Positions 17,021 through 41,100 of a DNA stretch of 45,783 nucleotides are shown here, piece by piece (positions within the stretch are counted from its first letter, which is position 1; each line of letters opens with the position of its first letter). The translations under genes and the position numbers were made by a program. The notes beneath the pieces were generated by a model. It did not search any database. It had not been told where the DNA came from and saw only the letters and a list, made by a program, of their open reading frames with translations. Origin of the DNA: a virus; the IMG/VR virus record IMGVR_UViG_3300020478_000014, positions 1-45,783 of that record; one strand, written 5' to 3'.

Positions 17021-18513
17021 TAGACTATAACTAGGTTACCGACCATAGCACCATGCAGAGTACACTGGTACACATAAGTTGTACCAGCAGCAACCGTCAT
17101 GGGCACTGTGTATACTAAAACATCTGTTATAGAACCAGATATACCGTCAGTAACGGCAGCACCACCTGATCCTACACGGATTTCAAATGGATGGTTCGTT
17201 GTAGCAGTGTTCTTAAATCTGTATGTAAAACCTCTATACAGATAGATTGTTGGGTTATCTGTTGTATTATCAACTCCTGGACCTGTAAGTCTCCAAGATG
17301 ATGCTCCACTATTTGCAGCACTATAACCCAAAACTGGTGAAATATATGCACCGAATGTATTACTTCCTGTTCCAACAACACTCTGTCCCTCACTGATAGC
17401 AGGCAATGCTGCAGCAGTGTTATTGATAGTTACAGTACTGCCAACAACAACAGTAGAAATGTTGGTCCCTCCAGCAAAAGTAAGAGTAGAATCAGAAGCA
17501 GCAGCGGTATAAGAACCCGTATCTCCTGCAGCCGTTTGGAGGACGTTTTGTACGACATTTGGTGAATCATTAGTGATGGTCAGATTATCACCAGAAATAG
17601 CAGTGCTAACTCCTGTACCACCAATAATATTAATAGTAGCAGTAGTAGAAGCAGCAGTCTTATTTCCTGAATCTGATCCTATTGTCGAGAAAAGATTTTG
17701 ATCTGGGTCACCTAAAGTGCCCGTCATATTTACAGTAACAGTATCACCAGAAAGAGAGGTGGAAATGTTAGTACCACCGACAATATTGAGAGTATCATTA
17801 GGTGCGGTAGCAGTTGTTGTACCTGAGTCTGCTGTAACTGTTTCGAATAGGTTTTGGGTTGTTCCTCCTCCACCACCTGATGTTGTTTCGTCATTTGCAG
17901 GCTCCCATGCTGTATTAGATGCATTCCACTTTAAAACTTGTCCGTCAGAAGGACCACCACCAACTGTTGTATCTACATCAGTAAGTGAGGTGATACCATC
18001 TCCCACATCTATAAGTTTTACCCAAGCACCACCATGTGAGAAATATCCTTTGCCAGTACCATGTACATGTGCAAACATACCATGATAGGTAGATGCATCA
18101 GGTAAACTTGCTTCATCTGTATAAGGTGCATTCCATTTTAGGTATCCATCAGCACCATCACATACAACATATGCTTGACCACTATTTCCTGCCCAAAGTT
18201 TAATATCTCCAGTAGTATCGGGTTTAACTATTACATCACCACCAGAAGCAGTAACAATATAATTACCATTAACATCTAAATCAGATGTCAACTTATCATA
18301 ATTTCCTCCTTCAAATGCAGTATTAGTTGCATTCCATTTAAGGACTTGATCATCTGTAAGACCAACACCAATATCAATCTGTAGATCTGAATTGTTTCCA
18401 AGTTTTTGGTAAAGCTCATCGAAATTGGCGTTAAGCTTTACGGCACCATCACGAAGGGTATCGCCTGTACCATCGTTCGCGGAAGAGCCAATTCCAATTG
18501 TCTGCTTAGCCAT
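17020..18513 (-). CDS. Fibre-like protein: gp9/gp10-type N-terminus, cupredoxin-like C-terminus (497 aa)
   Basis: Residues 1-45 (GIGSSANDGTGDTLRDGAVK, LNANFDELYQKLG) match the N-terminus of T4 gp10 (INIGNVVDDGTGDYLRKGG, ...ENFDELYYELG) and more weakly gp9, the baseplate-attachment ends of those proteins. The middle holds a 'QVLKWNATN' motif repeated three times with variation and three about 48-residue repeats. The last about 110 residues resemble a cupredoxin: His441 in NHPFEIR, then Cys484, His487 and Met490 in YQCTLHGAMVGNLVIV. That is the C-x2-H-x2-M spacing of amicyanin, with His441 as the expected fourth ligand. The stop overlaps the next start (TAATG). A baseplate-anchored fibre tipped by a copper-site-like domain is the inferred architecture. 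Confidence 0.85.
   Translation of the reverse strand: MAKQTIGIGSSANDGTGDTLRDGAVKLNANFDELYQKLGNNSDLQIDIGVGLTDDQVLKWNATNTAFEGGNYDKLTSDLDVNGNYIVTASGGDVIVKPDTTGDIKLWAGNSGQAYVVCDGADGYLKWNAPYTDEASLPDASTYHGMFAHVHGTGKGYFSHGGAWVKLIDVGDGITSLTDVDTTVGGGPSDGQVLKWNASNTAWEPANDETTSGGGGGTTQNLFETVTADSGTTTATAPNDTLNIVGGTNISTSLSGDTVTVNMTGTLGDPDQNLFSTIGSDSGNKTAASTTATINIIGGTGVSTAISGDNLTITNDSPNVVQNVLQTAAGDTGSYTAAASDSTLTFAGGTNISTVVVGSTVTINNTAAALPAISEGQSVVGTGSNTFGAYISPVLGYSAANSGASSWRLTGPGVDNTTDNPTIYLYRGFTYRFKNTATTNHPFEIRVGSGGAAVTDGISGSITDVLVYTVPMTVAAGTTYVYQCTLHGAMVGNLVIV
17026..17370 (-). other. Cupredoxin-like domain with type I copper ligand pattern
   Basis: This is the C-terminal domain of the 497-aa protein. The four potential type I copper ligands are His441, Cys484, His487 and Met490. 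The strand pattern before the cysteine (TVPMTVAAGTTYVYQC) and after it (HGAMVGNLVIV) is that of small blue copper proteins. Copper binding is not proven; many fold members are structural. Confidence 0.65.
17400..17860 (-). repeat. Three about 48-residue tandem repeats (QNxxxT...GGTxxST)
   Basis: The units begin QNLFETVTADSG, QNLFSTIGSDSG and QNVLQTAAGDTG and each continues to GGTNIST or GGTGVST and a DxxTxxN strand. This is typical stalk structure of phage fibres. Confidence 0.75.
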
Positions 18514-18535: not shown

Positions 18536-18543
18536 TATTTAGG
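18536..18543 (-). promoter_or_regulatory. Possible degenerate late promoter (CCTAAATA)
   Basis: CCTAAATA matches TATAAATA at 6 of 8 positions and lies 22 nt before the start of the 497-aa gene. It overlaps the TAA stop of the upstream gene. The spacing equals that of the gp8-like promoter, but the match is weak. Confidence 0.35.
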
Positions 18544-20122
18544 TCTGATCGAAGGTGGTACCTGTTGTATCGTATGTCATTCCTGTGTTATCGAAGGTAT
18601 TATCAGTTGATCCACCTACACCAGTTACAGTGAGTGTCGCAACATCAGACTCCAATGGTGAGTTCTGTGCGGGTTCTGGAGCACCAACAGGACCAGCGAC
18701 AATACACTTAAACTTATACCCAGTCATATACGACAATGCCGTGAACTGGTAAGAAGAAGAGGTCGCACCGTTGAGTGTGGAGTATGCGAAACCACCATCA
18801 GTAGATCTGTACCACTGATAGGACTTCGGACCATTCTCAGGAATGATAGTAACAGATATAGAGAACGTAACTGATTGACCAGAGTTGACAGTAGCGTTCT
18901 GAGGTTGAGAAGAAATCTGCAACGTTGATGGAGGAGCCTGATCGCCGCCACTTGGAGGTGGAGGAGGTGGAGCAGCACCATTATTTGCAGGTTGATCTAA
19001 TACTTGTCTACTAGTAGTACCCATCATGTATGGGAACCCTGCATCTCCTGCTTCAGTTAGAGATAGGAAATAAGCATAGGTACCATTAGGGTACTCAGGG
19101 GTATAACAAAAACGTCCATTATGAAAATCTAAATCACCTAAACCTTGATTGTATTCCCAGTCCTGCATAAAGGATCCAGCAGGAGGGTTTTGTAATGTAT
19201 TACCATATGCAGGACGTCCTACTGCTTCAGTTGGTTTCAACTGATAAGAAGGTTGCATAGTTTTGATACCAGTCAGAACACCGAATGGTTCGATATATCC
19301 ATATGGTCCGTAGATAGGAAAACCATCAAATGCAACACCCAATACTTTTGAATGACCATCTGGATGTCTTAGAGCATCACCATTAAACTGACTTAGACCA
19401 TAGTAATCATTATATGTGGTCATTATTGACCCATTTTGCCAGCAAGAAAGGAAGTCAGTATCGTGATAGTGATATTGTCCTGTTTGCTCTGGATGACCAC
19501 CACATGAATCATCACCAAAATCTACGGGTGAGAGGTCATAGTGGGCATTCCAGTTAAATCCTGCAGGTGGGTTTCCACCCGTTCCTGCAGATGGGTTGAA
19601 TAGTACGACACCATTAGCAGCAACACCGATAGCCCCAAGAGGAGTTTCAGTTCTTCCGTTCCTTTGATCATAATAAGTGCAAGTCCCGTTAATATTGTAT
19701 TGGGAAGTGTTAGTAATTAATGCTAGATTTGTATCAGTTGATTTCCAAGCGTATCCATTTGTTGAAATAGTCTGAGTACCATTATAAACAAACATTTGCT
19801 TTCTGCCATCGCTGAAAACAAATAAAAGATTATCTCCTGGACGTATATCTCCTGATTCTGTGTCACCAAATAATGTATTATCTGCAACTGAAAGAGGAAT
19901 GTTTATAACATATCCTTCTTGTGACCAAGTATCAACATCAAAAGTTCTTTCAATACCAAAAGTACCACCCCTGTAATAGAAATCGTGGTCGAAATCTTGT
20001 TCAGTAACCGTGTTGGGGTTATTAGGATTAGGGAAAGTGCCATAGGTAACTGGATTTGGTAATCCGTTACCGTCAACATCTAGGATCCTAGTACTTGGAT
20101 TGTAGGAGGCAGTTGCACTCAT
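18539..20122 (-). CDS. YHYH-domain virion protein with C-terminal Ig-like domain (527 aa)
   Basis: Residues about 60-355 form a YHYH domain. The signature GQYHYH is at residues 215-220, preceded by CGGHPEQ and followed by GVAFDGFPIYGPYGY (262-276) and NGRFCYTPEYPNGTYAYF (335-352), all hallmarks of that family. Its biochemical function is unknown, though the conserved His and Tyr suggest a binding site. A proline run (385-390) links to an Ig-like domain (about 398-499) with the SYQWYRSTDGG core strand and a tyrosine-corner-like TGYKFKC. The protein ends in NTFDNTGMTYDTTGTTFDQT, a short TFDxT repeat seen at the ends of some marine phage fibre proteins. It follows the giant gene by 13 nt and lies in a run of baseplate genes, so it is probably a virion adhesin. 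Confidence 0.85.
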   Translation of the reverse strand: MSATASYNPSTRILDVDGNGLPNPVTYGTFPNPNNPNTVTEQDFDHDFYYRGGTFGIERTFDVDTWSQEGYVINIPLSVADNTLFGDTESGDIRPGDNLLFVFSDGRKQMFVYNGTQTISTNGYAWKSTDTNLALITNTSQYNINGTCTYYDQRNGRTETPLGAIGVAANGVVLFNPSAGTGGNPPAGFNWNAHYDLSPVDFGDDSCGGHPEQTGQYHYHDTDFLSCWQNGSIMTTYNDYYGLSQFNGDALRHPDGHSKVLGVAFDGFPIYGPYGYIEPFGVLTGIKTMQPSYQLKPTEAVGRPAYGNTLQNPPAGSFMQDWEYNQGLGDLDFHNGRFCYTPEYPNGTYAYFLSLTEAGDAGFPYMMGTTSRQVLDQPANNGAAPPPPPPSGGDQAPPSTLQISSQPQNATVNSGQSVTFSISVTIIPENGPKSYQWYRSTDGGFAYSTLNGATSSSYQFTALSYMTGYKFKCIVAGPVGAPEPAQNSPLESDVATLTVTGVGGSTDNTFDNTGMTYDTTGTTFDQT

Positions 20123-20132
20123 CTTTTTTGAT

Positions 20133-20140
20133 TATTTATT
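20133..20140 (-). promoter_or_regulatory. Possible late promoter (AATAAATA) overlapping the giant gene's stop
   Basis: AATAAATA matches the T4 late consensus at 7 of 8 positions and lies 10 nt upstream of the YHYH gene start. It contains the TAA stop codon of the giant gene. The short leader leaves little room for a ribosome site, so the call is tentative. Confidence 0.4.
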
Positions 20141-23100
20141 GTTGGAAGATCTGGTTAGGTACGAAGTTCTGAACTACAGTATTACCAGTTTGTACAGTCA
20201 GTACAGCGGAATTAGAGTAAACAGGAGTTGCACCAGCGTATGTGATAGCAACACGGTACTCATCACCGTCATCAGCTTGTATGGTTGCGTTTGTATCGTA
20301 TGTGGCAGCAGTTGCACCAGTTATGTTTGACCAAGTTGTGCTACCATAATCCTTCTTCTGCCACTGATAGTTGAGTCCTTCAGTTGTATTAACTGGGTCG
20401 CCATCGGTAGCGTTGAATACTGCAACAACAGTGAAGCTAGCAGTCTGAGTCTGGTTAACCGTTACGTTAGTTGGCATACGTGTGATTGCGATATGACCTT
20501 CTTCGATAACGATTGGGTTACCAGTTGCAGGATCAATACCTTCACCCGCGTAGACGTCAAATCCACCGTTAACTGGAGGTCCATCTGGAGACTCGAAGGA
20601 ATCTTCAACGGTATTTTCTACAGCAACGATTGGTGCGGAGTAAGAAATACCTGGGGAGGAAACGTCAATTCTTGCAACACCCATTAGCGCACGTATGCGT
20701 CCATCAAATCCAGAGGAAGATATAACATCAACTGCTGGACGTGAGGTGTAACCGTTACCTGGGTTGGTAATGATTGCTGCGGATAGAGTACCCTGACGGA
20801 TATTCGCAAGTGCAGCAGCGTTTCTACCCTTAACTGTTCCTGTATATTCGAATGTTACCAAGGAGTTGGAAGACTCAATCAGAGCAACAACACGTGGATC
20901 TGTCTCATCCTCACCCTCGATGAAGAGTTGGTCACCTGCCTCAATTGGAGGAACGATGGTAGCAGCAATAACGTCTGCGTCAGAACCAATGTAGGAGAAG
21001 GCAACGAATGTTGTTCCTGCACGTGGGACTTCAGCGAAGATGATACGTGAACCAACGATTTCATAACCAACGCCAGGTTCCTGAATAACACCGTTGAGTG
21101 AAACGATAATGTTGTTTTCTGGTTTGATAGTGTTAGAAGAAACACCTTCAGTCAGAGTCAAGGAGTAGAATCCACCATTTTGCTTGAGGTTGAAGGAAGA
21201 TCTTAATGAGTCAAACTCGAAGGAGATATCATCTAACTGACGTAATTTACCAATGTAATAACCGATAAATTCAGATCCAACTTCAGGTGGTTCAGCGAAC
21301 GTGATGACATCAGATGATGCTGTGTAAGCACCAGTAGCACCAGGAGGTTGTAGAATTCCGTTCACGAAGATCATCATGTGACCTGCTGGATCAGGTAGAT
21401 ATTGCTCACCGTTAGCAATCGTCAAGTTGAATGCTGTCTGTGTACCATCAAATCCACGGAAGTAACGATCAACACGTCCTATTAAATCTTGAGCAGTTGT
21501 TACAGCAGCGATCCATCCGTTGTCAGATATGATGGTCATGTTATTAGACATTGTTCCATCAACATCTTCTACCCAACAACGAGCAGTTAGACCTTGCTGT
21601 TCAATAGAGATAATCTTACCGTAAGAGTTAGATGGAGTCTCAGTGTAAGTTCCAACAGTAGCGTATACGAGTGGGAAGTTATTTAAGTTATCAAACTTAC
21701 CAATGTTATAACCACCTGTTCCGACCGTACTTCCTGGAGGAGTTGGCCAGAGTTCTTCATCAATTGCATCTCCGTATGCGTAACGACCTAGAGCAGCAAT
21801 GTATAAATCATTAACTCCATCATCAGGTCTGTAATCATATTGAGTTACATATGCAGTCCAACCTGGGTTGGCAATTGCTGTTCCTTGTAAGAGGTAAACA
21901 ATGTCACCCTTGACAAATGTTCCTGAGTATTCACTATCAACTGTTACAGAAGATAGAGATAGTTTTCTAATGTTCTCACCATGTACGAACTGGTTAATAT
22001 TGATTGGATATCCACCATCTTGAATACCTACAAGATCAAGGATTTTCTCTGTCTGTGATCCGTAAATAACGTCACCAGACTGCCAAGTACCAGTAATAGA
22101 TTCAACGTCAATAGTGATTCTACCGCCATCATTACCCTGTAGTACACCTTTCTTATTATCGTATACACTGATGTATGCTTCAGTAGCAGTTGTATCCTTG
22201 AACATCCAGTCACCGACTAGGAATTCACCCATCTTCTCGTTGACTAATAGACGATCCTCTATAACAGCAGTTACAGTAGCAGTAGCACCAGAATCAACAC
22301 CTTCAAGTATATCGTTCTGAGAAATTGTTCCTTGAACTAACTCAAGTTTTAACCATCCAAGATCGTTCTCATCTGGTTTAACCATCTGAAGAACATAACC
22401 ATTGTTGACTGTTGCACCCTGTACCTGAACCTGCTCACCATTAATGAATGTAGTGGAGGACATTGTGTTAAGACCGTAGTACTTGAAGGTCTTAATAACT
22501 TGTGCCTTGTTAATAATACTTGAGGATACTTCTGCAGATGCACCAGTTGTTGTACCAACTAGAACGTCAGCAATATTGAATCCAGCAGTGATTGGTTGAT
22601 CTATATCACGATCACCATAAGCGACAGTGTTACGATCAATTCCAGAACGACGTATTGTTACGAACTGATGGTTACCTGTGTTCGTTAAATCAAATGCAAA
22701 GTCACGATAACGAGCATCATGCTTAACTTCACGAGCAATCTCAAACCAGTCAGCAGTTGCATTAAGGACATAGTAGTAAGGTTGATCATTAGCACCCTCT
22801 AGTGATGAAGCAGATGCAAGAATATACTTTAGAACATCACCACGACGGAAGAAGTTAGATCTATTGATGCGTACGCGATTTTCTTCACGCTCATATCCAA
22901 CCTCAATAGTAGGTGTGAGTTGAACGAGAGCAGGATCAGTGTTGTAGTCAACACCCTCATCGTAATCATTCTTAAGGTTAACTGCGTCAGAAGAAGCAAC
23001 GAATGTGACTACGTTCTCAGATGGGAAAGTAGCACGTTCGATAGCAAATTCTAAACAGTTGAGTGAAGAATCAAAGTCGAATTCAGTTTTCTCTTGATCC

Positions 23101-26100
23101 CATTCCAGACGTGGGGTATAACCCTGAATCTGTGCAGGACTCCATACATCATATCCATTCCAATCAGTATCACCGAAGTTAACCATTACATCCTTGGCAA
23201 ACTCACGTACCTTATTCATAGCATAAAGTAAGCGAATCCTATCTACAGCAGGATAAGCAATGAATTGTCCTTCTCCATCGAACCATGAGGAAGCGAGTTC
23301 AAATGCACCAGCGTTACCACCTGTTCTGAGGTCATATAAACCTGCCTCAAGAACTGCCTGACAGAATGCTAGATCAGGATTATCACCAGCAGGATATTGT
23401 CCTGTAGTTGCATCCAATGCACGCTGTGTAATAGCATGATCATTATTACGCATGTACTCGGCGGTGAGCTTATTGGAGTAACATCCAGCACCCATCGTAT
23501 CTACTAATAGATCGTATAGAGTATGCGAAGCAGATATAACGTTATAGCAAGTATATTGCTGATACAACGTATTGGTGTATAGACTTGTAGGTATCTGACG
23601 AGTTACACTACTGAGATGATTTACATTTGACTTAGCTTCGTTAATAGTTTCAATAACAATATCAAATAGAGTATTAATCGTAGACTGTGATGTTGAGCAT
23701 GCTTGTACCCAGCTAGCAGCACCAGCGTTATATGGAATTGTTAGATCACGTTCTACAGAATCACCTGTGTAATGTAATGGCCAGATAGTTGGTAATGTAC
23801 GTGTAACTCCATCAAGAGATCCATTACTTGTAATAGTATCAGTAATGATACCGAACATATTGTTGATTAGAGATTCAACGTTGGAGCAAGGACCACCATT
23901 TACAGGTACCTCAGTACGTGTAGCAGTAATACCACCAGTCTCAATAGATTCCTTAACAATGTCTATGAGAGTGATTGCTGCAGCAACCTCTGTTGGGCAT
24001 GCTGGTTGTGTGGTATCAGTAGTGATTGTTGTATCTCTGTACTGAAGTATTCCGTGAGTACCGAATGCAGCAGTAGGTTGATTTCTAATAATATCAGGGA
24101 TAATGCTAATAGCCTCATCCATAATACCCAAACTCCACTGCTCCTCAAAGTAATTGTTGAGGTGAGTGTTATTGGCATATTCTTCTGCCTGATCCCAAAT
24201 CTCAGCGTTTCCACCGAATGCTATGTGGTAAGCAACACCTCTCAATACACGTTCGATGTCATCTACACAATTATGATTACCACCAGGAATTGTGTATAGT
24301 TTATTGATTGCGTTGAACTTAGCACTTACAAACTTATGAGTGTAGTTACCACCAGTAATTACAGCACCAGCAGTTGCATTGGTGAATGTATGATCATGTA
24401 CACCACCAGCGATTAGTACAGATCTTGTAATACCATCAGTAGTAGCAGAAACAAATGTATGAACTGTCTCATTAGTTGATGGAATATTATCCAATACTTG
24501 TACTTCAAATGTGTATGAAGTTACATTGGTTAGTCTCAACCATCTTCCACTGGAAGGATCAGTTGCACGTGGATAAGAATGATTACCACCACCCTGTGTG
24601 CAAGTGAATGTTAAAGAGTTGTCAGCAAACTTGATATATTCACCATTAACCATTCCGTGTGTTGCAAGTACACAGTTAGCAGCAGCAGAAACAAAGTTAT
24701 GAGCAGTTGTATCTGTAATTGCACCCTGTCCACCATTAACGTTAACTGTAATTGTTGTATTAGTTACAGCAGTAATAGGAATAGAAGTATTGTGAACGTA
24801 ATCAGATCCGCCAGGTGTAGAAGCACCACTGGAACGTGGATATGTCTTCTGAGTTGTATTACCATCACCGTTGAAATCACAAGTGAAGGTTAATGAATCT
24901 TGAGTAAGTTGAATCTCATCCCATACGGTTAGACCGTGATCACCTAAGGTAAGTACTAAATCACCTGTTGTTGGATCATAAGTTGCATCGGTAGGAGTCA
25001 TCCTTCTACCAGCAGTTACCTTCATGATACCTGTGGATGGATTGTAATCAGCGTTAGTTGCAGTGAACTTATTGTGTGTTCCTACCCACTTATGAGCATG
25101 CTGATTAGCAGGAAGTGAATCGAAACCAACGTTAATGGTAACTGTTCCATCCTGTAGTTTGATACCATCTGCGGTAGCAGACGCGAAATTATGAGTTGTC
25201 TTATTCTGTGAAATACCAACGTTAATATCGAAGGTATCCTGCTTAACACCATGAACAGGTAACCATCTGTTAGCAAATGGATCACCAGCACGAGGATATG
25301 CATGAAGTGAACCGAAGTCGTCCTTCTCACATCTGAATGTTAATGACTCATTAGCAACCTGAACGTAATCATGTGCTACTTCAAATGTTGCCTTGGTTAT
25401 TGAATTAGCGTTAGCAGACTGGAATGTATGAGCAGTAGTGTTTGTTGAACCAGTACCCTGAAGTCCTTCTGGTAATACATTAACCTTAAAGGTATCAGCA
25501 GTAATATCAGAAACCTCTAGGTATGTTGCAGATGCAGGGTCACCGTGTGTAATTCCACCAGAAGTGGCACTTACAAATGTATGAGCATAGTTACCAATTG
25601 TAAGTTCACTAGCCATTACCTGAACCTTGAAGACAGATCCAGAAGCATCGTAAATACGTAACCACTGACCGCTAACTGGGTCATCAGAACGAGGATAAGA
25701 ATTACCAGGAGAACTTACACCTACGTTAACTGTGATTGTACCAGCACCATTATCAGCAGCAGTAATTGCTAATGTCTGTCCAGATGAAGGATCAGTTGCA
25801 CGTGGATATGAGTGCTGAGTAGCATGACCATCAAGATCACAAGTGAATGTGACTGCATTATCAGCAATCTGAACTGTATTGGAAGTTGTTAAGTTATGGT
25901 TGATTCCTATGTTTAGAACCAAAAGACCAGTTGCAGGATCATATGTTGTTCCTGCTACAGCAGTGAATGGTCCACCAGAGTTTGCAGTGATAGCGTTAGA
26001 AGCACCACTTACGAAGGTATGAGCACCAGCACCATATGTACAACTGAATGTTAGTGAATTATCAGCGATCTTAACGAAGTCACCATTTACAAGTCCATGA

Positions 26101-29100
26101 GCACCAGTAGTAGTGATGGATAGTTCACCAGTTGTTGCATCAAATGTAGTACCAGAACCAGCAGTTAAAGTTGTCTGTGAAGGTCTTGGATATGTGTAGT
26201 TACCACCACCCTGTGCACAACTGAAGGTAAGTGCATTGTCATCAATCTTAACAAAACTACCATTCTTCAAACCATGTCCAGCAGATGTAATGGTCATTAG
26301 ACCAGTATTAGGATCATATGCTGCAGTGGATGGAGTTAGAGTAGGTGTAGTTACGAAAGTATGTCCATAATCACCACCAGTAACCAATGCCTTAGTCTGC
26401 TTCTTAAGACCACCAGCAGTAGCAGATCTGAACTGGTGAGCATAGTTACCACCAGAGAGAACTGAATTTTCTAGAGCAGATATGAATGTATGTGGTTGTG
26501 TCTGACTCTGAGGAATAACGTTGTTAACCTGTAGTTGGATAGTAGTGTTAGTAACACCAACAATAGGAACAGAAGTATCGAAGAATGGATCCTTCTTAAT
26601 GGAGATACCATCTGCAGTAGCAGACTTCCATACATGACTAGTAACGTTTGTAGAAGGAGTTTCATCAAGTACTTCTACAGTAAACTTAGCAGAGTTAATA
26701 ACAGTAACCTTCAACCATCTTCCAGAAACAGGATCAGTAGGTCTTGGATAGGTATGATCGGTTGCTTGAGCATCCTTATCACAAGCAAATGTCAAGGAGT
26801 TATTAGCAATCTTGATCCAATCTCCAGTAGTTAATCCATGGTTAGAGGTTGTTTGGATTGTTAGTAATCCAGTTACAGGACTGTAAGTAGTGCCAGTTGT
26901 AGCAGTAAGAGTTCCCTTAATATCAGATCTTGGATATGCAGTGCCAGGAGAACTTACACCAACATTAACTGTAATAGTATTAGCACCCTGATTTGCATTT
27001 GTAATTGCAATGAACTGATTGTATACAGGGTCAGTAGCACGAGGATATGGATGATCGCTACCATAGTTGTCCAGATCACACTGGAATGTTATGGAGTTCT
27101 GAGCAATCTTAACAGTGTTGGAAGTTGTTAATGTATGTCCAGCACCAATTGTCAATACTAAAGTACCATCTGAAGGAGTATACTCAGCATCAGTAACAGT
27201 CAAAGCATTGCGTTGCATTACTGTTACACCATTAGCAGTTGCACTAACGAATGTATGTGCATCAAGGTTACTAATAGGAGTACCAGGTGACTGGTTAACG
27301 TTAACAGTAATTGTTCCAGCAGCGGCATCAACAGCAGTAATTGCTATGTTGTTGTTATAAACATAGTCCTCTCCATTACCTGTGTTAGCACCAGTAGCAC
27401 GAGGATATGTCTTAGTGGTAAGGTTACCATCTAATGTACATGTGAATGATAATGAATCAGGAGCAATCTGAATTTGCTCACCAACATATAATCCATGATC
27501 AGCACCGACTGTTAATACTAAATCACCACTTGCGTTATCATAAGTTGCGTTAGAAACAGTGAACTGTTCTCCTGGAGCAACGGTAATACCACCAGAGGTT
27601 GCAGATACAAAGTTATGATCACCAGCACCGTATGTGCAACTAAAGGTTATAGCACCCTCAGCAAGTTTAACTTTCTGACCTGACTGTAATCCGTGGTTAG
27701 CACCGATAGTCAACTCCATAATACCTGTCTGAGGATTATGGCTTGCATCTGTAGGTGTGAATGTCTGTATTGGTGTACTACCAATATTAACCTTAAAGGT
27801 ATCTTCAGTTACATCATATACATCAGTCCACTTATCATAGAATGGATCAGTTGTACGAGGATAAGTATGATCTGTTGCATAGTCATCCATCTCACATCTG
27901 AATGTTAGTGAGTCTTGGACAAACTTAACCTTGTCTCCATTAACAAATCCATGCTTCGCAGAAGTAATAACCATAACTCCAGAAGCAGGAGTATAAGAAG
28001 CATCGCTTACTGAATAAGTTGTTTCTCCAGTTAGAGCATTAACAAAGTCATGATCATATGCACCACCAGCAATTACACCATTTGCAAGTGCACTCTGGAA
28101 CTGGTGAGGATATTGGTTAGCAGGATCAGAATCAACACCAACGTTAATTGTAATTTGTGTAGCAGTTACAGCATCAACGTTAATTGTGGTGTTATAGAAT
28201 GGGTCAGTTGTACGTGGATAAGAATTATCTGTACCATATCCATCCTTATTACATCTGAATGTTAATGAATTTGGAGCAAGTCTAATTCCATCATTCTGCT
28301 TAATCTTATGAGATCCAATGGTCAATACCATTACACCCGTAACCTCATCATAAGAAGCATTAGATGCAGTGTAGTAAGAAAGTGGTGTCTTACCTACATT
28401 AACTGTAATAGTCTTAGCGGTCGAATGGATGATATCCATTGGTTGACCATATGCTCTGTCAATCTTCTGTGTAATTCCATCTGTAGTAGCAGATACGAAT
28501 GTATGTGTTGTGGTATTTGTAGATGGAATATCAGTTAATACCTGAACATCAAATGTATTTGCAGTTACATTAAAGATTGGTAGATATGTGTCGTATGCAG
28601 GGTCGGTTGTACGAGGATAACTATGGTTACCACCACCTTGAGTACAAGTAAAGGTTAATGAGTTAGCACCAAACTTAATCCAGTCACCCTCATCCATACC
28701 GTGACTTCCAACAGTCACAGTCATTACACCAGTATTAGGATCATAATCTGCATCAGTAGCAGTATGACTAATAGTGCTTGTTCTTGGATAAGTGTGTGTA
28801 GTAGCATAGTCATCCATTGCACACTTGAACTGCAATGAATTACTTGCAAGCATTACTGTCTCACCTACTCTTCTTACACCATCAGTATGAGCACGAACGA
28901 ATGTATGAGCAGTAGTATTAGTAGGAGATGTACCACGTAATATCTGTACCTCAAATGAATCAGTAGATACATTAGAGATCTCCATCCAAGTACCACTAGC
29001 AGGATCAGTTGTTCTTGGATAAGTATGTTCTGTCTGATCACTATCCTGAGCACATGTGAATACTAAAGAGTTATCAGCGATCTTAACTTTATCACCATTA

Positions 29101-32100
29101 GCAAATCCATGATCTACAATGGTTAGTTTCATTACACCCGAAGATGGGTTGTAAGTAGCATCAGTTACGGTGTGGTCAGAATGTCCACGAAGATGATGTG
29201 GTCCAACAGTAGTAATGACCATTTCACCTGTAGTTGCATCATAATCAGCATGAGCAACATCGTACTGAACTTTAGGTGATTCACCAATAACTACTTCAAA
29301 TGTATTAGTAGTAGTTGAAGTAATAGTTAACCACTTGTTAGCAACAGGATCAGTAGGTCTTGGATAGGTATGCTTGGTAGCATTACCATCCTTATCACAT
29401 GTGAATGTTAATGAGTTAGGTTCGAACCTCATCTGCTGACCAGGTTGTAAACCATGGTTAGCAAGAGTCATCTTCATAATACCAGTTACAGCATTGTAAC
29501 TAGCAGAAGTAACAGTATGCTGAGTAGAAGGTTTGAATCCATGACCAGCAACAGTCAATGTCATTTCACCTGTTGTAGGTGTATAAGCAGCATTAGTTGC
29601 AGTAAAGTTCTCTGAACCTACAGAAGCAACAGTAATTGCTTTATCGAAGAATGGATCAGGTGCACCATCACCAGCCTTTGCTCTTGGATAGTAGTGAGTA
29701 GATGTATAAGCATCCTTAGCACACTTAAATCCAAGTGAATTAGCAGCAAGTTTGATGCTGGTACCTTGTCTTAGTCCATGGTTACCAATGTTAAGTACCA
29801 TGGTTCCATCATTATGGTTGTAATCAGCATAGCTGACATCGTAATCAACATGCTCTGTACGACCAACATTAATTGTAATATTACCATCTTGCTTCTCAAG
29901 ACCATTTGTAGCAGCGGAAACAAATGTATGAGTAGATGTGTTAGGTGAAGGTCCAATATTAACTTGGAACTGATTTGTAGATACATTAGATACAACTAAC
30001 CACTCATCTGAGAAAGGATCAGTTGGTCTTGGATATGCATGTCTTGTAGCATGTAAATCAGCAGCACAAGTGAATACTAAAGATCCATCTGAAATTCTTA
30101 CCCTATTACCATTTGAGAATCCATGTCCAGGAATTGTAATTGCTAAATCACCAGTACCAGGATTGTAAGATGCACTAGTTGGAGTCCACTTACTTGCACC
30201 AACTTCCTTAATTGGGATAGCGGTATTTGCTACTGGATCTGTGGCACGTGGATAAGTATGCGTCGTCGCATTATTATCCATATTACAGGTGAATGTTAAT
30301 GAATCATCTGCAAGTTTAATTGTTGTTCCTTCTGTAAGATTATGTAATCCAACATTAAGTTTAAGATCACCAGTTACAGGATCATATGTTGCAGCACTTG
30401 GTGTATAAGCAACAGTTCCAGTAGTACCAACATTTACAGTTACAGTACCGTCTTGCTTCTTAATTCCATCAGCAACACAAGAAACAAATGTATGTTGATA
30501 TAAAGGATTAAACTGAACTGCACCAGTTAATGCAGACATAAATGTGTGAGTAGTTGTGTTGGAAGATATACCAACATCAACAGTAATTGTAGTAGTACCA
30601 ACTGCTGTAACAGGTACATGCTGTTCAAATGCCTTATCTCTCTTCTGCTTAATTCCGTCAGTAGTACCACTCACAAATGTATGAGTAGTTACGTTCGTAG
30701 AAGGAATAGTTGTAAGAACTTGAACTGTGAATGTCTGAGAAGTAACGGCGGTAACTTCTATCCACTTACCACTTACAGGGTCAGTAGATCTTGGATAAGA
30801 ATGGTTTCCACCACCTTGTGTGCAAGTGAATGTTACTGCACCATCATCAAACATTACCCAATCACCGACCTTGATACCATGTGTGGTACCTGTGTCAATA
30901 ACCATAAGACCTGTATCAGGTGCATATGATGTACCAGCACCAGCAGTATGTGTATCAATTGTTGGTCTTGGATATGCATGTGCTTGACCAGCATTCTGTG
31001 TACATTCGAAGGTTATTCCACCTTCCTTAATCATAACCTTGGCATCTACAGAAAGGTCATGATCACCGATAGTCAATACCATCAATCCTGTAGTTGGATC
31101 GTATGTGGCATTGGTAGGTGTGTACTCAATTACAGGAGCAACATGTACATCTACTGTAAATTCATCATCCCATGCTTGTGTTACTGGTAACCACTCATCA
31201 CTAGCATAGTCTGTATATCTTGGATACGTATGTTGTGATTGATGATTGTCAGCATCACATGTAAATGTAAGAGCGTCGTCCTCAATTAAGATAGCATCAT
31301 TTGCTTTCTCGAATGATGCTCTCTGCAGACCATTAGCACTAGCACTTTGGAATGTATGAACTGTGGTATTTGTAGAAGGTGCATTAGCAAGTACTTGTAC
31401 ATCAAATGTATCATCAGAAACATTGAATACCTTCAAGTACTTCGCAGAACCAGGATCACCATGAGTAATACCATTAGAAGCACCACTTACAAAGTTATGT
31501 GTCGTCTCGTTAGTAGAAGGAACAATATCAAGAACTTGAACTTCAAATGTTGTTGAAGATACATTACGTATTTGTAACCATCTACCGCTAACTGGGTCAG
31601 TAGAGCGAGGATAAGTATGCTGTGTTGAACCACCATCCTTCTGACAAGTGAATGTTAATGCATTATCGTCAAACTTGATCCACTCGCCATTAGCAAGGTT
31701 ATGTGCACTGCTAGTAGTGATACTTAGAACACCTGTTGTTGGGTTGTAAGTAGTACCAGTGTCAGCAGTATGTTGACTTACTTGTGGTCTTGGATAGGTA
31801 TGGTTGCCACCACCTTGTGTACAAGTAAATGTAAGTGAATTATCAGCAATCTTGACAAAATCACCATTGTCAAATCCGTGACCAACGGAGGTGATAGTCA
31901 TAATACCCGTTGTTGGGTTGTAGTCAGCATCGGTTGCTGTCTTAGTACCAGCAGCGACAAATTTATGGATATAATCACCACCAGTTACAATGGCACCTTC
32001 GGTTGCTCTGACAAAGTTATGAGCAGTTGTGTCAGTAATAGCACCCTGTCCACCGTTAACATTAACAGTGATAGTTGTCTGTGAAGTAGCGGTAATTTCT

Positions 32101-35100
32101 ACAGCAGTATCATAAACATAGTCCTCTCCATTACCTGTCGATGCACCTGATGCACGAGGATATGCTTTCTCTGTCTGGTTATTGTTACCGTTGTAATCAC
32201 AAGTGAATACTAAAGATTCAGTCTTAATCTTAATGTGTGTACCTACTTCCAATGCATGATGACCAATGGTCAATTCCATGTCACCTGAAGTTGGATTGTA
32301 AGTAGCAGCAGTAGGAGTGAATGATACTAATGGTGACTTACCAACATTAACCTCAAAAGTATTTGCAGTTACATTGTTAATGGTTAACCAACGCTTACTT
32401 ACTGGGTCAGTGGATCTAGGATAAGTCTTCTGAACTGTATTATCATCCATACCACAAGTCATGGTTAAGGAGTTATCAGAGAATAAAATCCTGTCTCCAT
32501 TATAGAAACCATGATCCTGAACTGTAATAACCATAATTCCAGACTTAGGATCATACGTAGCACCAGTTATAAGGTGTGCAGTAGATGGTCTGAATCCATG
32601 ATTATCAATAGCAAGAGTCATTATTCCTGACTCAGCATCATACTTAGTACCAGCACCAGCAGTATAGGAATCAGTTCCAACTGCAGTAATTGCTAGTCTT
32701 TCGTTATAAGAAGGATCAGTTTCACGAGGATAACTGTGCTCTGTACCATGATTATCTTGATCACAAGTAAAGACTAATGAATGAGCATCAATAGAAATAT
32801 GATCATTTGTAGTGAAATTATGTGTTGGGAATTTCAGTACAAGATCACCACTAGTAGCATTATATGATGCATCAGATGGAGTGAACTGTGCTGTAGGAGT
32901 TAGATCATTATCACGTGTATAACGATATACTGCTTCCTCAGCAACAAAACGTGAATTGTTGAGAATTAATTGATAAGCATCAGCAGACCTGTTGGCATTA
33001 ATACCACCAGTCAATATAGCCTGCTCCATCGTGGGATTATCACGAGTACGAGTGCTATATGGATAGTAATCTAAATCAGCATAGTATTTCTGGAACTTGC
33101 CGTGTATATTCTGACCACGAGCAATTACAGGAATATTACGCATAACCTTAACTGCCAAATCTCTAGCCTCATTGAAGGCATAAATTGGCATTTGGTTAGT
33201 TAAATGATAAGTTGATGCACTTCTATAGAAATCAGCAGCATCCCAAACATGACTATTACCACCGTACTTCATATCGAAGACCATAGCACGTAGGTAATCT
33301 GCTATATCATCGACACATGATCTGTCACCATTTCTGATGTGAAGTTGTGGATATTGAATATTTGCACGATATACTGCTTCCTCAGCAAGGAAACGTATAT
33401 TACGATCAATTAGATTTGCAGCATCAAGATACCTTGATACAATTGGGTTCTGATCATAACTCTCTAGAGAAGGATCATCTTCTTCACCAACACCGTATCC
33501 ATAGATGTTATCTCTACCAAAAGCGTTTCTTATAGCAAGAGTTGTCATATCTCTTGCCAACTTCATTGTATAGATTGAAGCATCAGCTTCGTTAGTGATA
33601 TGTTTTAGTGAATTATTTTCAGGTTCAATATAGTAATTTGCAGCATCCCAGACCTTACTGTTACCACCTAAACGCATGTCATGGACAACAGCAGTAAGGA
33701 CGTCAACTACGTCATCTACACAATCTTCTGGACCTTGACCTTCTGGATAAGCATGATCTTGGAACTTAGCAATATCATTCATTGTATGAACTGCTTCCCA
33801 AGCAATCTGCTTCTTATTCTTCTCTATAAGATCAGCAGCATCCAATATACGGTTACCGTCTGAACGGTTTGGATCATATCCCTGAGGATCAGGTGGGTTA
33901 GTAACACCATCCCAATCTGCATCAGTATTGTGTACAGTGAATGGAGCAAGGTTTGTATACTGACAAATATAGTAATCGTCAATATTTACAGAACCCTGAT
34001 TTGTATCAGGAGCAAATCCATTCTGAACTAATAGATGGTTAATTGCTTTAGTTGACAAGAACTTAGTGAACTCAATGGCATCCAACATAGGAAGAAGTTC
34101 TTCATCCACGTGGAGAATGTCTTGATCAGCATCAAGATAATTGTCAATTACATCATTAACAGCAGCATTACCACCAGTAATCAAATCGGCAATAATTGCA
34201 GGGATAATGAAGTCTTTAATATCACGCTGACATTTAACAGTATCAGGGATAGTTAATTTATCGTAAGTAGTACCACCTTCACCGCCAACTGTAACAGTCC
34301 ACTTAGCTTCGATATATCCAACAACTTCCTCAGCAATCAAAGAACGGTTCTGCCATAGAGCATCACCACCATCACGGTAACGAGGACCAGTTGGTCCTAG
34401 GATAGTCAGAACTCCATCCATCAATGCTGTAATTTCATTCTGTACAGTAGCTGAAGCAGGACTTGAGAAGTTATTAGGAATTCTAAGTCTGGTTGTATAT
34501 TCGTTTGTTAAGTCAGTACTTGTAGTTGTAATGACGAAGTTAATAAGTTCTGCTGCTTTCTGCCATGTATAGAGAGTTTGTAGCAGTTCTTTATTAACGA
34601 AGTCTAATCCACCAGTTGCAGTTAAGTATCCTTTAGCAGCAACAGTTGTATAGTAGTTACCACCATACTTAAGGTCTTTAATTAGAGCACCAATGATATA
34701 CTCCTCAGTATCCCTTAAGCAGAAATAAGTACCAAGTGTAGATCCAGTTGCAGCATCATCTCCACGGATAACGAAGTCTGGGAACTTCGCTTTCATCATT
34801 CCTACAGCAACCTCAGAGATCCAAGTCTCATTTTGTTCAATGGAATCAGCACAACGACGATGCTCGTCACGACCAAGATCGACATCTTCTATAACTACAC
34901 GCTTATCATTATAGTTAACCTTCTTAGCAGTAGCAGAAGATATGGTTTGACCAGTGAACTTAGCATATGTTTCTGTAGTAGAACATATAAATGGAGTCTC
35001 ACCAGTTAATCCAAGAACAATCTCATCCTTCGTATAATCAGGAGCAACAGGAGGTGTAAATGCAGCAGTGTAATCTGCAACACCCTTCTTGACAACAATG

Positions 35101-38100
35101 TTGTCCATGTTACCAACGAATCCATTACTACCAGCTAGATCAGCACCAACATAACATGGAGCATAGGTGAAGTCATCACTGTTAGCAACGTTTGAACCTG
35201 CTTGTGTGCCATTGACATATGCCTGCATGACACCTTCATTTCTAATTACTGCAACATGATACCAAGTATTAGCTGTAGTAAATACGTTACCAGAAAGAAT
35301 AAGAGTAGTACTTCCATTATATACGCGAAGGGTTTGATCCTGCATGTAGATCCGCAAACCTGAGCCAGCAGTACGACGAAGATCAAATAAATGTTGTGTA
35401 CCAACTATACCAGTTGGATTAATCCATGCCTCAAATGTGAAGTTTCCTGTTGCAAAATCAAAATCATAAGAATCAACTGCCTTCAAATAAGAAGTTGATG
35501 GGAACTTAAGTGATTTTGTAGAATTTGCTAATTCAGGTTTAGTAATAACGACACTCTGTGTAACACCGTTAGTATTAACAAGAGTAGAATTAGTAATGTA
35601 CTCACGATCTTGAAGAGTACCAGTAATACCAGCACTATCAGCAAACAACCAACCAAGACCAGAGTTGACACCCTCTAGAGTACAAGTAGCACCAGATGTA
35701 ACACCTTTAAGGGAATTACCCATCTTGAATAATCCACTGGACTTATCCTTATAGGCAAGTTTAATAACACGAATGGTCTCTCCATCACGGAATGAACCAT
35801 CATCAATATTTGCTAATGCATTGATATTGGTTAGGTTACCATTGGTAAATGCAGTGGTAACAATACCTGTAATAGTATCAATTGTAGACTGTACGTCAGC
35901 ACAGTTCGTTGCACTCTGATTATTACCAGATGCATAGTTGGCATCATAGTAATTAGCAGGAGCAACACCACCAGAATAAGTGGTAGGATCATTCAGGTTA
36001 TATCCTACTGTGTTGAGATCTTTTACATACAGTAAATTATTGATTGCTTTCTTAGCAAGATCTTTAGCATGTCCAATAGATGTTAATCCTTGTGGAGCAT
36101 GAAGACCTGATATTGCATTACCAGAAGCATCAAAGTAAGAGCGAACAAATTCGACACTCTTAAGATTACCACCACTCTTAACATCCTCTTCTAATGCATC
36201 AACGAATAATGCAAGGTCACGACGACATGTGGTCTCAACAGAGTTATATGCTGGTTCAGCAGATTGTATATCTCCTATGTTCTGATTCTGTAGAAGAGTT
36301 TCGGTAACTGTATCTCTTAAAGTTGTTAGAGCAGACTGTACATCAGCACAAGCACCAACATCAGTATTACTAATGGTACTACCAGTACCACCGTAAGTAG
36401 CAAGTCCTTCTGTTAGAGTTGTATCGTTGTATAAGGTGTAAGTTACACTATCAACCACCTGTGTACCAGAGAACTGGTTGGTGACTGCAGAAAGCATGTA
36501 TTCAACAGCCTTAGTATAATTCCAGACTGTCTCAGTTATCTGAGCATTAATATACTGAAGAGATGCACCACTAAAGTATTCTTCAATAAACTTACGTACA
36601 TACTTGTTACCAGTAGCCATCATATCGTATGCAATTGCATCGACTAGATAAGCAGTGTCACGCTTACACTTATCTGCATCGGGAACTACAAGAGATGGGA
36701 ACTGTAGCAACATCTGCTCGTAGGACTTAGCAACGATATAGTCCTTATTCTTAATGATTAATCTGTATGCATCACGGAAACGTGAACGTCCATCTGTCTG
36801 GGACATTCCTGGATAATAAAAATCAGGATGATCTACAGCAATCTGTGCTTCTGCAAAGTCAACAATCTCATCCTTAGCTCTCTCTATACTACGTGAACCG
36901 TCTCTATGTCTGTTAGCAGCAGTTCCATATGCAGCACCGAGTATTGGGTTATTATAGTTAACCTTGATATTACGTAGATTATCACCAGCACCAAATACAC
37001 CACCAGTTAGATCAGTATAGGTAACTTCCGAAGATCTAACTTCTTCAAAGTCTAGGAAGTTAGCATTGATACGAGCATCACTATCAAGGAGTTCAGTTGG
37101 TGTAATAGTAGATTTAGAAATATTATCTAACAGAACATTAGGATAAGACTGACTAACCAAACGTTCAAATAATAGACCATAGAAAGTAGATCCAGTTGTC
37201 AATATCTGTGTATCAACAACATCACCTGTTACTGGGTCTCTATATGGTGCTAGGACTGTAACTCTTGCAGCAATATTTGAACGAGCAGAATAAATGATAT
37301 CCTGAAGTCTGATATCAAATACTCCAGTCTCATACTTAGCAGTACCAGAAGTCTTAGATAGAACTATGTCATTACCAGCACTACCATCTACTTCAATATT
37401 GATTGCATTAATTTGAGCAGTAGGATTGTTACGGCTACGATTTGTACAGATGACAGTTTCATCAAATTCGTAGATAGTATCCTGCGAAATAATTTCTTGT
37501 GATCCAATTCTTGCACTGAATCCTAAAGCAGTAACGTTAATTACTTCATTATTATTGAATACAGGAGATCCACCAGTATTAGAAAGATCTACAACATCAA
37601 TAGTCTGAGAACCAGAAGCAACAACTGTTGCATAGGTATCTGACTCAGCTCCCTGTACTTGATAACCAATCTCAGGATATATACCACCAACATCAGTTAG
37701 ATTAAGTCTAGTGATTTGTAAGAATTGAACTGTTGCATCACGATATACAACCTTAGAAGGTGCCTTTGGTGCTTCTTTAAATACGATGTCAGCACCGACA
37801 ATATCATAAGATTCAATAGGTGACTGAATAACACCATTAAGAGTAATCAATAACTGGTCATTTTTAACGATGGTTTGTTCCCCTTCAATTGTGATTGGGA
37901 ATGCTTTCTTAATACCATCAAAGTCACCAGCAATATCATCTAACTTCTTAACAATAGAAGTTAAAATTTCCTCAGAGTTAGTTAAACGCTTTTTACGGAA
38001 GAGAACTTCAGTATTGTTAAAGTCTGTATATATTGGTTGTGCAGCAGCAAATGAGGTAACTTCATTGAAGTTAGAGTACTCATTAATATTGACCTGCTTA

Positions 38101-41100
38101 ATAAACTCAGTACCAACCTTACGTCCAGATACGTCCTTACCACCAGTCAGTTGTAACTGACCAAACATATTGAAACCAGCAGGGTGGTTATTCTCAAGAA
38201 TTTGTTCCTTCCACTGGTTGATAGGAATTTGAGACTTGATAACGTAAGAGAAGTTTTGATAGAAGAAGGAGTCCTGTATCTTCTGTACAATCTCAGAAGG
38301 TTTACCAACGTCATCAATAAACTTACCTGGTGTCTCAGTTAGAGAACCAATATTCAATACACCCTTAGCAAGAGATATATTATCGATAACACCAGATGCA
38401 CGTGAAACTGTACCGTTTACTCGGAATCCTTTTACGAAGTTTCCATTAGCATTAACTAGTTTTAAAATCTTAGGTCCAATTTGCCAACCATCGTTAATTG
38501 ATACTTCAGCAAATACTGTAGCAAGTTCTTCGCTATCACCCATATAAACTTGCTCACCTTCTAGGAATCTAGAAGTTTCAACAACTGCGGTTGCTTGACC
38601 ACCAAATACCTCAGTTAGAAGAACTTGACGACCTGAACCCTGTGTCAAGAAGGTAATGTAGTTACCAGACTCAGCATCAGCAGGTGTTAAAGCAAAACGT
38701 AATTGATCAGATTCAAGAGAATTCAATTCACCAGCAATAGCATAGTAAATCTGATTCTCAACCAAACTGGTTAAACCAGCAGAACTTGGTTTTGGTAGTT
38801 CACCTTCTGTGCTACCAATATCATCTGAACGGAATGTAACTTCTGCACCTTGTGTTATACCATGAGGGAAGTTGAACTGTAAGTAGTTCAAATCAAGGTT
38901 AACAACGTAGTTAAATTCTGACTTAAGTGTTACTTCTGGTTGTGAACTATATCCTGCACCTGGGTTCTTAATCTGTATTTCATTAAGACGATTGTTCTTA
39001 ACTATAGCAATTGCTTCAGCACCAAATCCGCCACCACCAGTAATGATTACACTTGGTGCAGAAGTATATCCAGCACCAGGATCGGTAATTTTGATCTGTG
39101 AAAGTATTGAAGTATTGAATAGTTGTAGGTTAATTGGGAATGTAATTTCTGGTTTCAGAGTATAGTCATGTGAGTATCCATAACCAAACTCATTGTTCTT
39201 CAACTTCTTAATCTTACCGATATTCTTACCAGTTAAGAATACAGAAGCACCAGATCCCTCATCAGGGATGATTACAGTTAATTCTGCACCAGAACCAGTC
39301 AACTGAGGACCGAGAATTCCTTGGATAGAATCAACATCAATTGAAGCAATAGTATATCCTTTACCAGGATCAGTAATAACAACGTTAGTGATAGTGCCAG
39401 AGCCAATCTCTTCATCAACCGCGACGGTGATGCGACACAAACCACCTTCACCATCACCGTCGATGGTTACTTGGTCGTATGTACCAATTGCATATTCAGA
39501 TCCACCAGATGTAATGTCAATACGTTCTATCTGACGGAAAGAAGCAATATCTGAAATGATAGGTAACTTCTTATAGAAACCACCAGCAGATATTAACTTA
39601 ATTGAACTAATTGGACCAATTGCTCTTGTAGATGTAGTTGAATACTTAGAGTATGCAACATCTTGATCATCTTCACCAACATTAGCATTCGTAAATTCTG
39701 GTTCGAATGATAGTGGGAATTGGAAGTTGGTATCGTCAATGACCTTAGATACGGCATATGTGCCGTCAAATGGAGTCTTCTTAACATCAACGAATGACTG
39801 TGCTCCAACAGGAGAATTACTATCAACCCTAGATGGGTCAAAGTAGTAAGAAATATTTGTTACCTGACCATCAATCTTAAATTTAACGAATGGTGCATTA
39901 GTACCATCGAATACACCAGGTGTGCCAGATCTTTCAATATTATTGAATGAATATTCGAGTTTAAACTCGTTATCTTGAGAGAATGATAGGTAGTACCCTA
40001 AGTTGGTACTATCGCTCATATCAAAGATATAATTATGATTTCTTGTAAGCATCAAAGTAGGATGCTTAGTGTAGATATCTACATTAGCAATACTACCCTG
40101 AGTAAATGCTGGTTCAGCAGATGGAACAGCACGAGTAGTAAAGATGAAATCTCTAGAAGTGAATACTTCCTTAATAAAGAAGGAACCATTAAATTCATTA
40201 GTAGAGAATCCCTCAGTAAATAGGATATTTCCTTGTTCGTAATTGTGACGTGAATTAGCGACACAATATACATCCTTAGTTCTTGACTGACCACTAGTCT
40301 TCATTAAGATAGTCTTATCAAGAATTGCTTGAATAGTTACCCTCTTAATTGAATTGATATCATTAATCTGTAATACTGTAGTTTGTCCTTCTTTAGGATT
40401 AACAGTAACACTTCCACCAAGACTTAGACTGTCATTTACAATAAAGTTTGAATCGTGATAAACTTCTTCTACACGAATTGAATAATATGCCTCTCCAGCC
40501 TCATAATTCTTAAAGGTAGCAAAATCACTGAGAGGATCATAAGTTAATTGCCATTCCCATGTTGCAGTACCATCTACAGCAGTCCCAGTAGTATGGGAAG
40601 GTGGGGTCTTAGATGTTCGGCCAGCAACAGTACACTTGTATTTATTTCTACCATAATAAACAATATCACCTACATCATAGATGATCAATTGTTCCCAAAG
40701 AGGTTCAGCAGGTACAGGGAATGCAGTGTTAGCAAGATCTAATTCAAGAGGTAGAGATGAGACAATATCAAAATCCCATGAAACACCACCATCAGACTGG
40801 TTGCCAGCTAGATGAGAAGGTCTACCAGTTACAGGACCAGAAGTTCCATTAGTTGTTGCAGTATAGTGATTACCATTAGCATATACCTCATCTCCTGCTT
40901 GGTATACTGTTAGTGGTTTCCATTCCTCCATTGCACGTTGAGCAGTGAAGGTTAGATTACTAATTACATTACCAGCATTATCTGATGCTAAATCTGTTTG
41001 GAATTCCTCATTAGTACTAAAGGTAGCACCAGCAGGATATATCTTACCAATCCTATAGGTAGTACCAAGACCAGGAGTTTCAATCTCACCAACAGGTACC

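Follow-up and report, generated by a model that had tools for sequence, protein, structure and literature searches.

An array of FxC/YPR units in a giant virion protein

A viral DNA stretch of 45,783 nucleotides (nt), positions 1 to 45,783 of IMG/VR record IMGVR_UViG_3300020478_000014 (hereafter the window), carries within one giant gene a long array of units, each with a cysteine-bearing strand (FxC) and a YPR turn, and it raises the question of what this unit is and what such an array could do for a phage. The initial annotation of this DNA had described a 27-fold FxC/YPR array of unknown family at 24310–32905. The analysis confirmed the array: 27 strands of the form [LVI]x[FM]xC were counted, as were 27 YPR turns, with both motifs present in 25 units. 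The coordinates were broadly right, while their ends were one base off frame; the in-frame span is listed here with that of the gene (aa, amino acids).

20136..45782, minus strand: virion structural protein of giant size at the gp7 locus; 8,548 aa lie inside the window, and the 5′ end is cut off by the end of the contig
24312..32885, minus strand: FxC/YPR barrel array, residues 4300–7157, with 27 FxC units, HTFVSA hairpins and truncated heads

The simplest units have a period of 85 aa and follow approximately the pattern TPTxAtYdPtTGxmxLTIxxHGLxxGDxVkIadnSLTFTCxxDxnxTxHTYPRxTDPxxxxWlxIxnVTxxTFxVNVG. Other units are lengthened by one or more HTFVSAtxxGI hairpins or shortened by fusion, and truncated heads of 22–30 aa are also present. 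In sequence, the HTFVSAtxxGI hairpins appear paralogous to the FxC/YPR hairpin, with glycine in place of cysteine and FVS in place of YPR. In the units at C6049 and C6581 the YPR is replaced by HNFVSA/HTFVSG, and the YPR sequences at 6283 and 6696 belong to the second, paralogous hairpin, which has no cysteine.

To define the conservation of the unit, eight conserved columns of the profile were masked, and a re-alignment was made of 1,034 units, 849 of them distinct, taken from viral contigs and the window. The masked-column profile scored 1,925 bits against the array versus 6.9 bits for the best shuffle, and the FxC...YPR motif, observed 25 times, was not found in any of 200 shuffles of the array region, so that the array is far beyond chance. 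A tandem repeat search at the DNA level detected no repeat within the array, and the mean pairwise identity among the window units was 40% at the amino acid and 54% at the nucleotide level. Synonymous codons are mixed at the Pro, Arg, Phe and Asp positions, while Tyr is always encoded by TAT and Cys mostly by TGT. A recent concerted expansion was considered and is unsupported, as the best match lay within the window for only 10 of the 25 window units; some of the within-window best matches form old block pairs, e.g., 4528/6968 and 4654/6522.

In the masked-profile alignment the cysteine was retained in 99.4% of 807 relatives, Tyr and Pro in 98.7% each, and Arg in 97.1%, followed by Asp56 (94.0%), Phe (89.8%), Asp43 (88.3%), Gly12 (84.4%), and His21 (82.7%). 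The turn histidine (HTYPR) was present in 72.2%, with lysine in its place in 21.5%, and its loss was independent of the loss of Cys or of His21. Hence, of the five residues initially described as conserved, Cys, Tyr, Pro and Arg held, whereas the histidine did not, and the strict conserved set, as judged from the alignment, is one without the turn His. Surface positions are mostly variable between units, and apart from D43 and D56 the unit has no conserved acidic residue.

Predicted fold of the unit

The structure of two adjoining units was predicted using AlphaFold2 with 112 aligned segments as input.

27759..28370, minus strand: two-unit segment for structure prediction, residues 5805–6008

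Each unit was predicted to form a small β-barrel (pLDDT 92.1, pTM 0.62), and the strand pattern was similar in both units. The proposal that the units are under selection on protein structure is supported by this confident and consistent fold, together with the masked-profile conservation of Cys, Tyr, Pro, Arg, and Asp. The strand limits of the model suggest that F38, C40, H49, Y51, and R53 probably share one face of the hairpin.

Among solved structures, the best match to the predicted unit was the barrel of the phi92 endosialidase (4hiz; Z 6.8, root-mean-square deviation [rmsd] 2.1, 76 residues). It was followed by 9jlf, a protein of a phage head-to-tail interface (Z 6.5), the FCCH barrel of Uba6 (Z 6.3, rmsd 2.5 over 72 residues), and endoNF (3gvk; Z 6.2), and lambda and N4 tail proteins were also among the structural matches. 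Weak Pfam matches in the 112 segments were led by End_beta_barrel (16) and E1_FCCH (10). On the array itself, End_beta_barrel (PF12195) reached 13.7 bits, below its cutoff of 35 bits (best segment E 0.0071), while E1_FCCH (PF16190) reached 31.5 bits summed over the array, above its cutoff of 29.5, with no single stretch significant. When the PDB alone was searched using Foldseek, none of the matches to the barrel was significant (best E 0.03), and the fold assignment therefore rests on VIA-align and Pfam together. The NCBIfam search of the array returned no family, and neither single-protein nor profile searches of PDB sequences gave a convincing match. When hhalign was used to compare the unit with the HGLLVGDQ barrel located N-terminally in the relatives, the result (Prob 20–27%) was suggestive only.

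The description of the family as unknown was accurate in that none of Pfam, NCBIfam and the PDB has an entry dedicated to it; on the other hand, PHROG families include the unit, and its fold resembles the endosialidase and E1 FCCH barrels. Like the phage endosialidase barrel (PF12195), the unit is predicted to be a small phage tail β-barrel of ~80 aa, but in endosialidases the barrel is present as a single copy in a trimeric tailspike, unlike the tandem array of the window, and we know of no FxC/YPR hairpin in it. With E1_FCCH (PF16190, Uba6) the predicted array unit appears to share the barrel layout, while the E1 function is irrelevant to the array. The fold is probably already known, and the FxC...YPR hairpin would be an addition made to it in cyanophages.

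The array interrupts a phycobiliprotein-like domain

The comparison with phages S-SZBM1 and S-WAM1, in which both flanks of the array align and the units are absent, located the site of insertion. The left flank of the array ends SADAYQLILNNSRFVAEEAVYRYT and the right flank starts YTIPGGNHNCVDDIERVLRGVAYHIAFGGNAEIW; joined together, they correspond to a single uninterrupted domain that both relatives carry, DRFIDASHIIERNIRLIAEEAVY...IPGGAINCVHDVTDVLHAMVWNLRYGGNNK. Hence, ~2,860 residues are inserted inside a single domain, just before its cysteine. This domain is phycobiliprotein-like, and further copies of it lie in the same protein.

32886..32987, minus strand: interrupted phycobiliprotein-like domain, first half (two N-terminal helices); residues 4266–4299 align to S-SZBM1 from ~5232
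24033..24311, minus strand: interrupted phycobiliprotein-like domain, second half, CVDD helix onward; the same S-SZBM1/S-WAM1 domain continues
33039..33443, minus strand: further phycobiliprotein-like copy, CVDD
33444..33863, minus strand: phycobiliprotein-like copy, CVDD; the equivalent copy in P-RSM6 is interrupted by the array of that phage
33936..34385, minus strand: further phycobiliprotein-like copy, CQRD
34368..34862, minus strand: further phycobiliprotein-like copy, CLRD
36390..36785, minus strand: intact phycobiliprotein-like domain, C-x-R-D, identified by PF00502, profile against the PDB, and structure (Z 13)

The PF00502 (Phycobilisome) cutoff of 22.2 bits was exceeded both in the segment (36.8 bits) and by a single copy (23.1 bits). 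A profile of 44 relatives matched 77 PDB sequences, and those listed were phycobiliproteins or the derived smURFP; the best match was CpcA (7.7e-5), whose KCARD aligned with the C-x-R-D of the phage domain. The predicted structure of the intact copy (pLDDT 81) matched phycobiliproteins or their fluorescent relative in 50 of the 50 matches listed, the best of them with Z 13.0 over 117 of 132 residues and rmsd 2.4. A Z value of 13 is borderline for helical folds, and the sequence evidence is concordant with it. The domain was found in 287 phage records, all named cyanophage or marine. Among the 44 relatives the Cys is retained in 40, the Arg in 41, and the Asp in all 44, while the copies adjoining the array read CVDD, with the Arg missing.

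A separate insertion was observed in P-RSM6, where a clean insert of 418 residues (residues 5743–6160 of its giant protein) lies at the equivalent of window residues 4062/4065. This insert is an FxC array inside the preceding phycobiliprotein-like copy, at which the window has no array. Because both ends of each of these arrays meet at nearly one point, the array forms a loop rather than a straight fiber with a free end.

A bolder proposal, which we regard as improbable, is that the array sits on the loop preceding the bilin-type cysteine in baseplate domains that are true relatives of phycobiliproteins, and that some of these domains still bind bilin. If true, the baseplate would contain a scaffold derived from the light-harvesting antenna, perhaps carrying chromophores and fitted with looped arms of barrels, and the cyanophage bilin genes pebS, pcyA, ho1, and cpeT would gain a structural use. 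The phycobiliprotein-like scaffold, if a structure confirms it, would be a host light-harvesting protein reused in a phage structure.

The giant protein occupies the gp7 locus

The window protein is a divergent member of phrog_701, the cyanophage gp7-locus virion structural proteins, with ~43–58% identity to P-RSM6 outside the array, and phrog_701 matches three array-flanking segments with E ~0 to 8e-273. In P-RSM6, P-SSM4, P-SSM7 and other relatives, the array protein is placed between gp6 and gp9/gp8. When T4 gp7 was compared with a profile built from the first 1,300 residues of the protein in six relatives, one 30-residue match of 43% identity was obtained (DFYssKG...LFKvLYGEeV); nothing comparable was seen for T4 gp10, which was rejected as the identity of the giant protein. 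In P-SSM4 the Pfam family Baseplate_wedge scored 26.9 bits, against a cutoff of 27. The 30-residue motif and the position after gp6 support the existing "gp7" annotations. The likeness to the T4 gp7 baseplate wedge consists of this position and of the motif in the relatives, while T4 gp7 itself has 1,032 aa and no array, and the match is limited to the 30 residues. The T4 baseplate contains six gp7 molecules, one per wedge; by analogy, ~160 barrels could be displayed per virion of the window phage.

The alignment of window residue 15 to P-RSM6 residue 1887 suggests that the complete giant protein probably has ~10,400 aa. A length of ~10,400 residues is very large for a phage protein. All large genes of the 45.8-kb window are on the minus strand, and the following further features were assigned.

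35091..35474, minus strand: laminin-G/concanavalin-like domain within the giant protein (PF13385, E 4.7e-19)
40839..40925, minus strand: CBM5/12-like carbohydrate-binding motif, two stretches in the giant protein (PF02839, 26.1 bits, slightly below the cutoff of 26.2)
18539..20122, minus strand: YHYH and Ig-like virion protein, syntenic with P-RSM6
17020..18513, minus strand: gp9-like baseplate wedge/tail fiber connector (PF07880, phrog_677)
13595..15130, minus strand: gp8 baseplate wedge (PF09215, phrog_438)

The window and P-RSM6 have a common gene order, which is the giant protein, YHYH protein, gp9, a hypothetical protein, gp8, and a protein of ~2,456 residues. The gp8 of the window is 86% identical to its counterparts in S-SZBM1, P-RSM6, and S-WAM1. 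These sequence comparisons place the window among the T4-like cyanophages of marine origin (Kyanoviridae). The giant protein itself also contains a YHYH domain in P-SSM4 and P-RSM6. At 3–5621 of the window, on the minus strand, a long repetitive tail-fiber-like protein with repeated blocks (e.g., TTTTVNSTVTTVDDPIMTLGGDTAP) is truncated by the contig end.

Distribution of the units among phages

A tblastn search with the array returned 374 phage records, by name Synechococcus phages, cyanophages, Prochlorococcus phages, and 10 "marine" viruses, with the units located in gp7-locus proteins or tail-fiber genes. Counted at a score of at least 40 bits per copy, the window has 27 units, P-RSM6 18, P-SSM7 11, P-SSM4 10, S-P4 9, and ACG-2014d and S-WAM2 3 each; S-RIM8, S-RIM2, S-RIM12, and ACG-2014b have one unit each, and no FxC units were found in S-PM2d081, S-WAM1, or S-SZBM1. 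The gp7-locus proteins (phrog_701, T4-GC397/643/969; P-RSM6, P-SSM4, P-SSM7) have the locus, the flanking domains and the FxC/YPR units in common with the window, and differ from it in array length and insertion sites. Among genome contigs nine matching loci were found, mostly on marine contigs of metagenome-assembled genomes, together with a 189-kb Prochlorococcus single-cell contig, which we infer to be phage DNA. A 188-kb contig of the flavobacterial isolate genome of Nonlabens xiamenensis (NZ_RMVE01000006.1) also carries FxC/YPR units and is probably co-sequenced phage or contamination.

The units are already public as "virion structural protein" and within PHROG families. Neither the FxC/YPR repeat nor phage tails with phycobiliprotein-like domains were found described in the open-licence literature. 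The new elements here are the number of units and how strongly they are conserved, their fold, the insertion of the array as a loop within the phycobiliprotein-like domain, and a separate insertion in P-RSM6.

Possible function of the array

On balance, we lean toward the explanation that the array is an accessory part of a giant gp7-type wedge protein and serves as a looped arm for multivalent binding to the host surface. Cyanomyoviruses lack g10, g11, g12, g34, g35, and g37, for which other structural proteins are thought to substitute (PMC2984593). Virions of S-SM1 were found to contain the T4-GC969 protein (PMC3037559), and the array protein of S-P4 is placed in that cluster. The endosialidase barrel, which the unit resembles, binds sialic acid and is a hotspot of host discrimination, which it achieves through its loops (PMC12632334). 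The missing fibers, the virion detection, this likeness, and the LamG and CBM5/12-like motifs that the giant protein also carries together favor multivalent binding of host glycans. Of the candidates named in the initial annotation, a metal site, a disulfide network between neighboring units, and a polyvalent lectin, the lectin is the best remaining one by fold, location, and neighboring domains of carbohydrate-binding type.

In this explanation, each unit of the tandemly expanded array is a predicted barrel with a GDxVxI core and an added FxC...HTYPR hairpin, often also with the paralogous HTFVSA hairpin. Arrays that enter and leave at one phycobiliprotein-like loop would lie at the baseplate edge as flexible, looped strings of barrels, and their most likely job would be multivalent, low-affinity attachment to host surface polysaccharide in place of the T4 fibers missing from cyanomyoviruses. 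In-frame recombination would alter the copy number and the mixture of units. The invariant Cys would have a structural role on the packed face of the hairpin, beside Tyr and Arg; a packed structural Cys is the default explanation, although chemistry is possible.

Several observations weigh against this explanation. The gp7-like N-terminal part lies outside the window, so that the gp7 link comes from the relatives. The Z values of the barrel are below 8 and possibly reflect just a common barrel arrangement. The cysteine, at 99.4%, is unusually strict for a merely packed residue. Finally, the gp7-locus protein of S-PM2d (081) gains mutations during coexistence with its host (PMC9910659), but S-PM2d081 has no FxC units, and therefore this selection is informative about the protein family, not about the array; the coevolution data, with FxC units absent also from 088 and 218, were rejected as evidence on the array.

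The main rival to glycan binding, to which we give a smaller but real chance, is that the barrels are a passive spacer supplying length and bulk to a baseplate arm, with binding left to the LamG, CBM, or other domains. A copy number that is free from 1 to ~27, with none in some relatives, and units that have diverged to 40% identity with mostly variable surface positions would be expected of a spacer, while the conservation of the hairpin face (Cys, Tyr, Pro, Arg, Asp) over ~800 units exceeds what a spacer needs, although fold stability could explain it. It is unlikely that each unit is a metal or redox site, in which the Cys with nearby His, Tyr, and Asp would bind a metal or do chemistry. 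The frequencies of Cys (99.4%), His21 (83%), and the turn His (72%), and the probable location of F38, C40, H49, Y51, and R53 on one face, as read from the model strand limits, are consistent with such a site; however, the ligands of a Cys/His metal repeat are not conserved together. The turn His is replaced in ~28% of relatives, mostly by Lys (21.5%) and in some units by other residues, with the Cys unaffected, and the isolated units of S-RIM2 and S-RIM12 have the Cys without the turn His, which argues against a strict metal site.

A disulfide network between neighboring units or between the chains of a trimer is very improbable. With a single Cys per unit any bond would have to join units or chains, but the lone units of S-RIM2, S-RIM8, S-RIM12, and ACG-2014b retain the Cys, and at the gp7 locus, with one gp7 per wedge in T4, a trimer is unexpected. 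There is still less to expect from the possibility that the units are enzyme domains acting, e.g., in polysaccharide hydrolysis: the likeness is to the non-catalytic barrel domain of endosialidases and not to their catalytic propeller, D43 and D56 are the only conserved acidic residues, and searches of NCBIfam and Pfam gave no convincing match to an enzyme family.

Cyanomyoviruses are abundant in the ocean, and with the T4 fiber genes missing, their host-binding parts are largely unassigned. The array, which is a clean insert absent from near relatives, offers a concrete host-binding candidate in the form of an optional, recombining string of barrels that would be looped out from a baseplate wedge protein.

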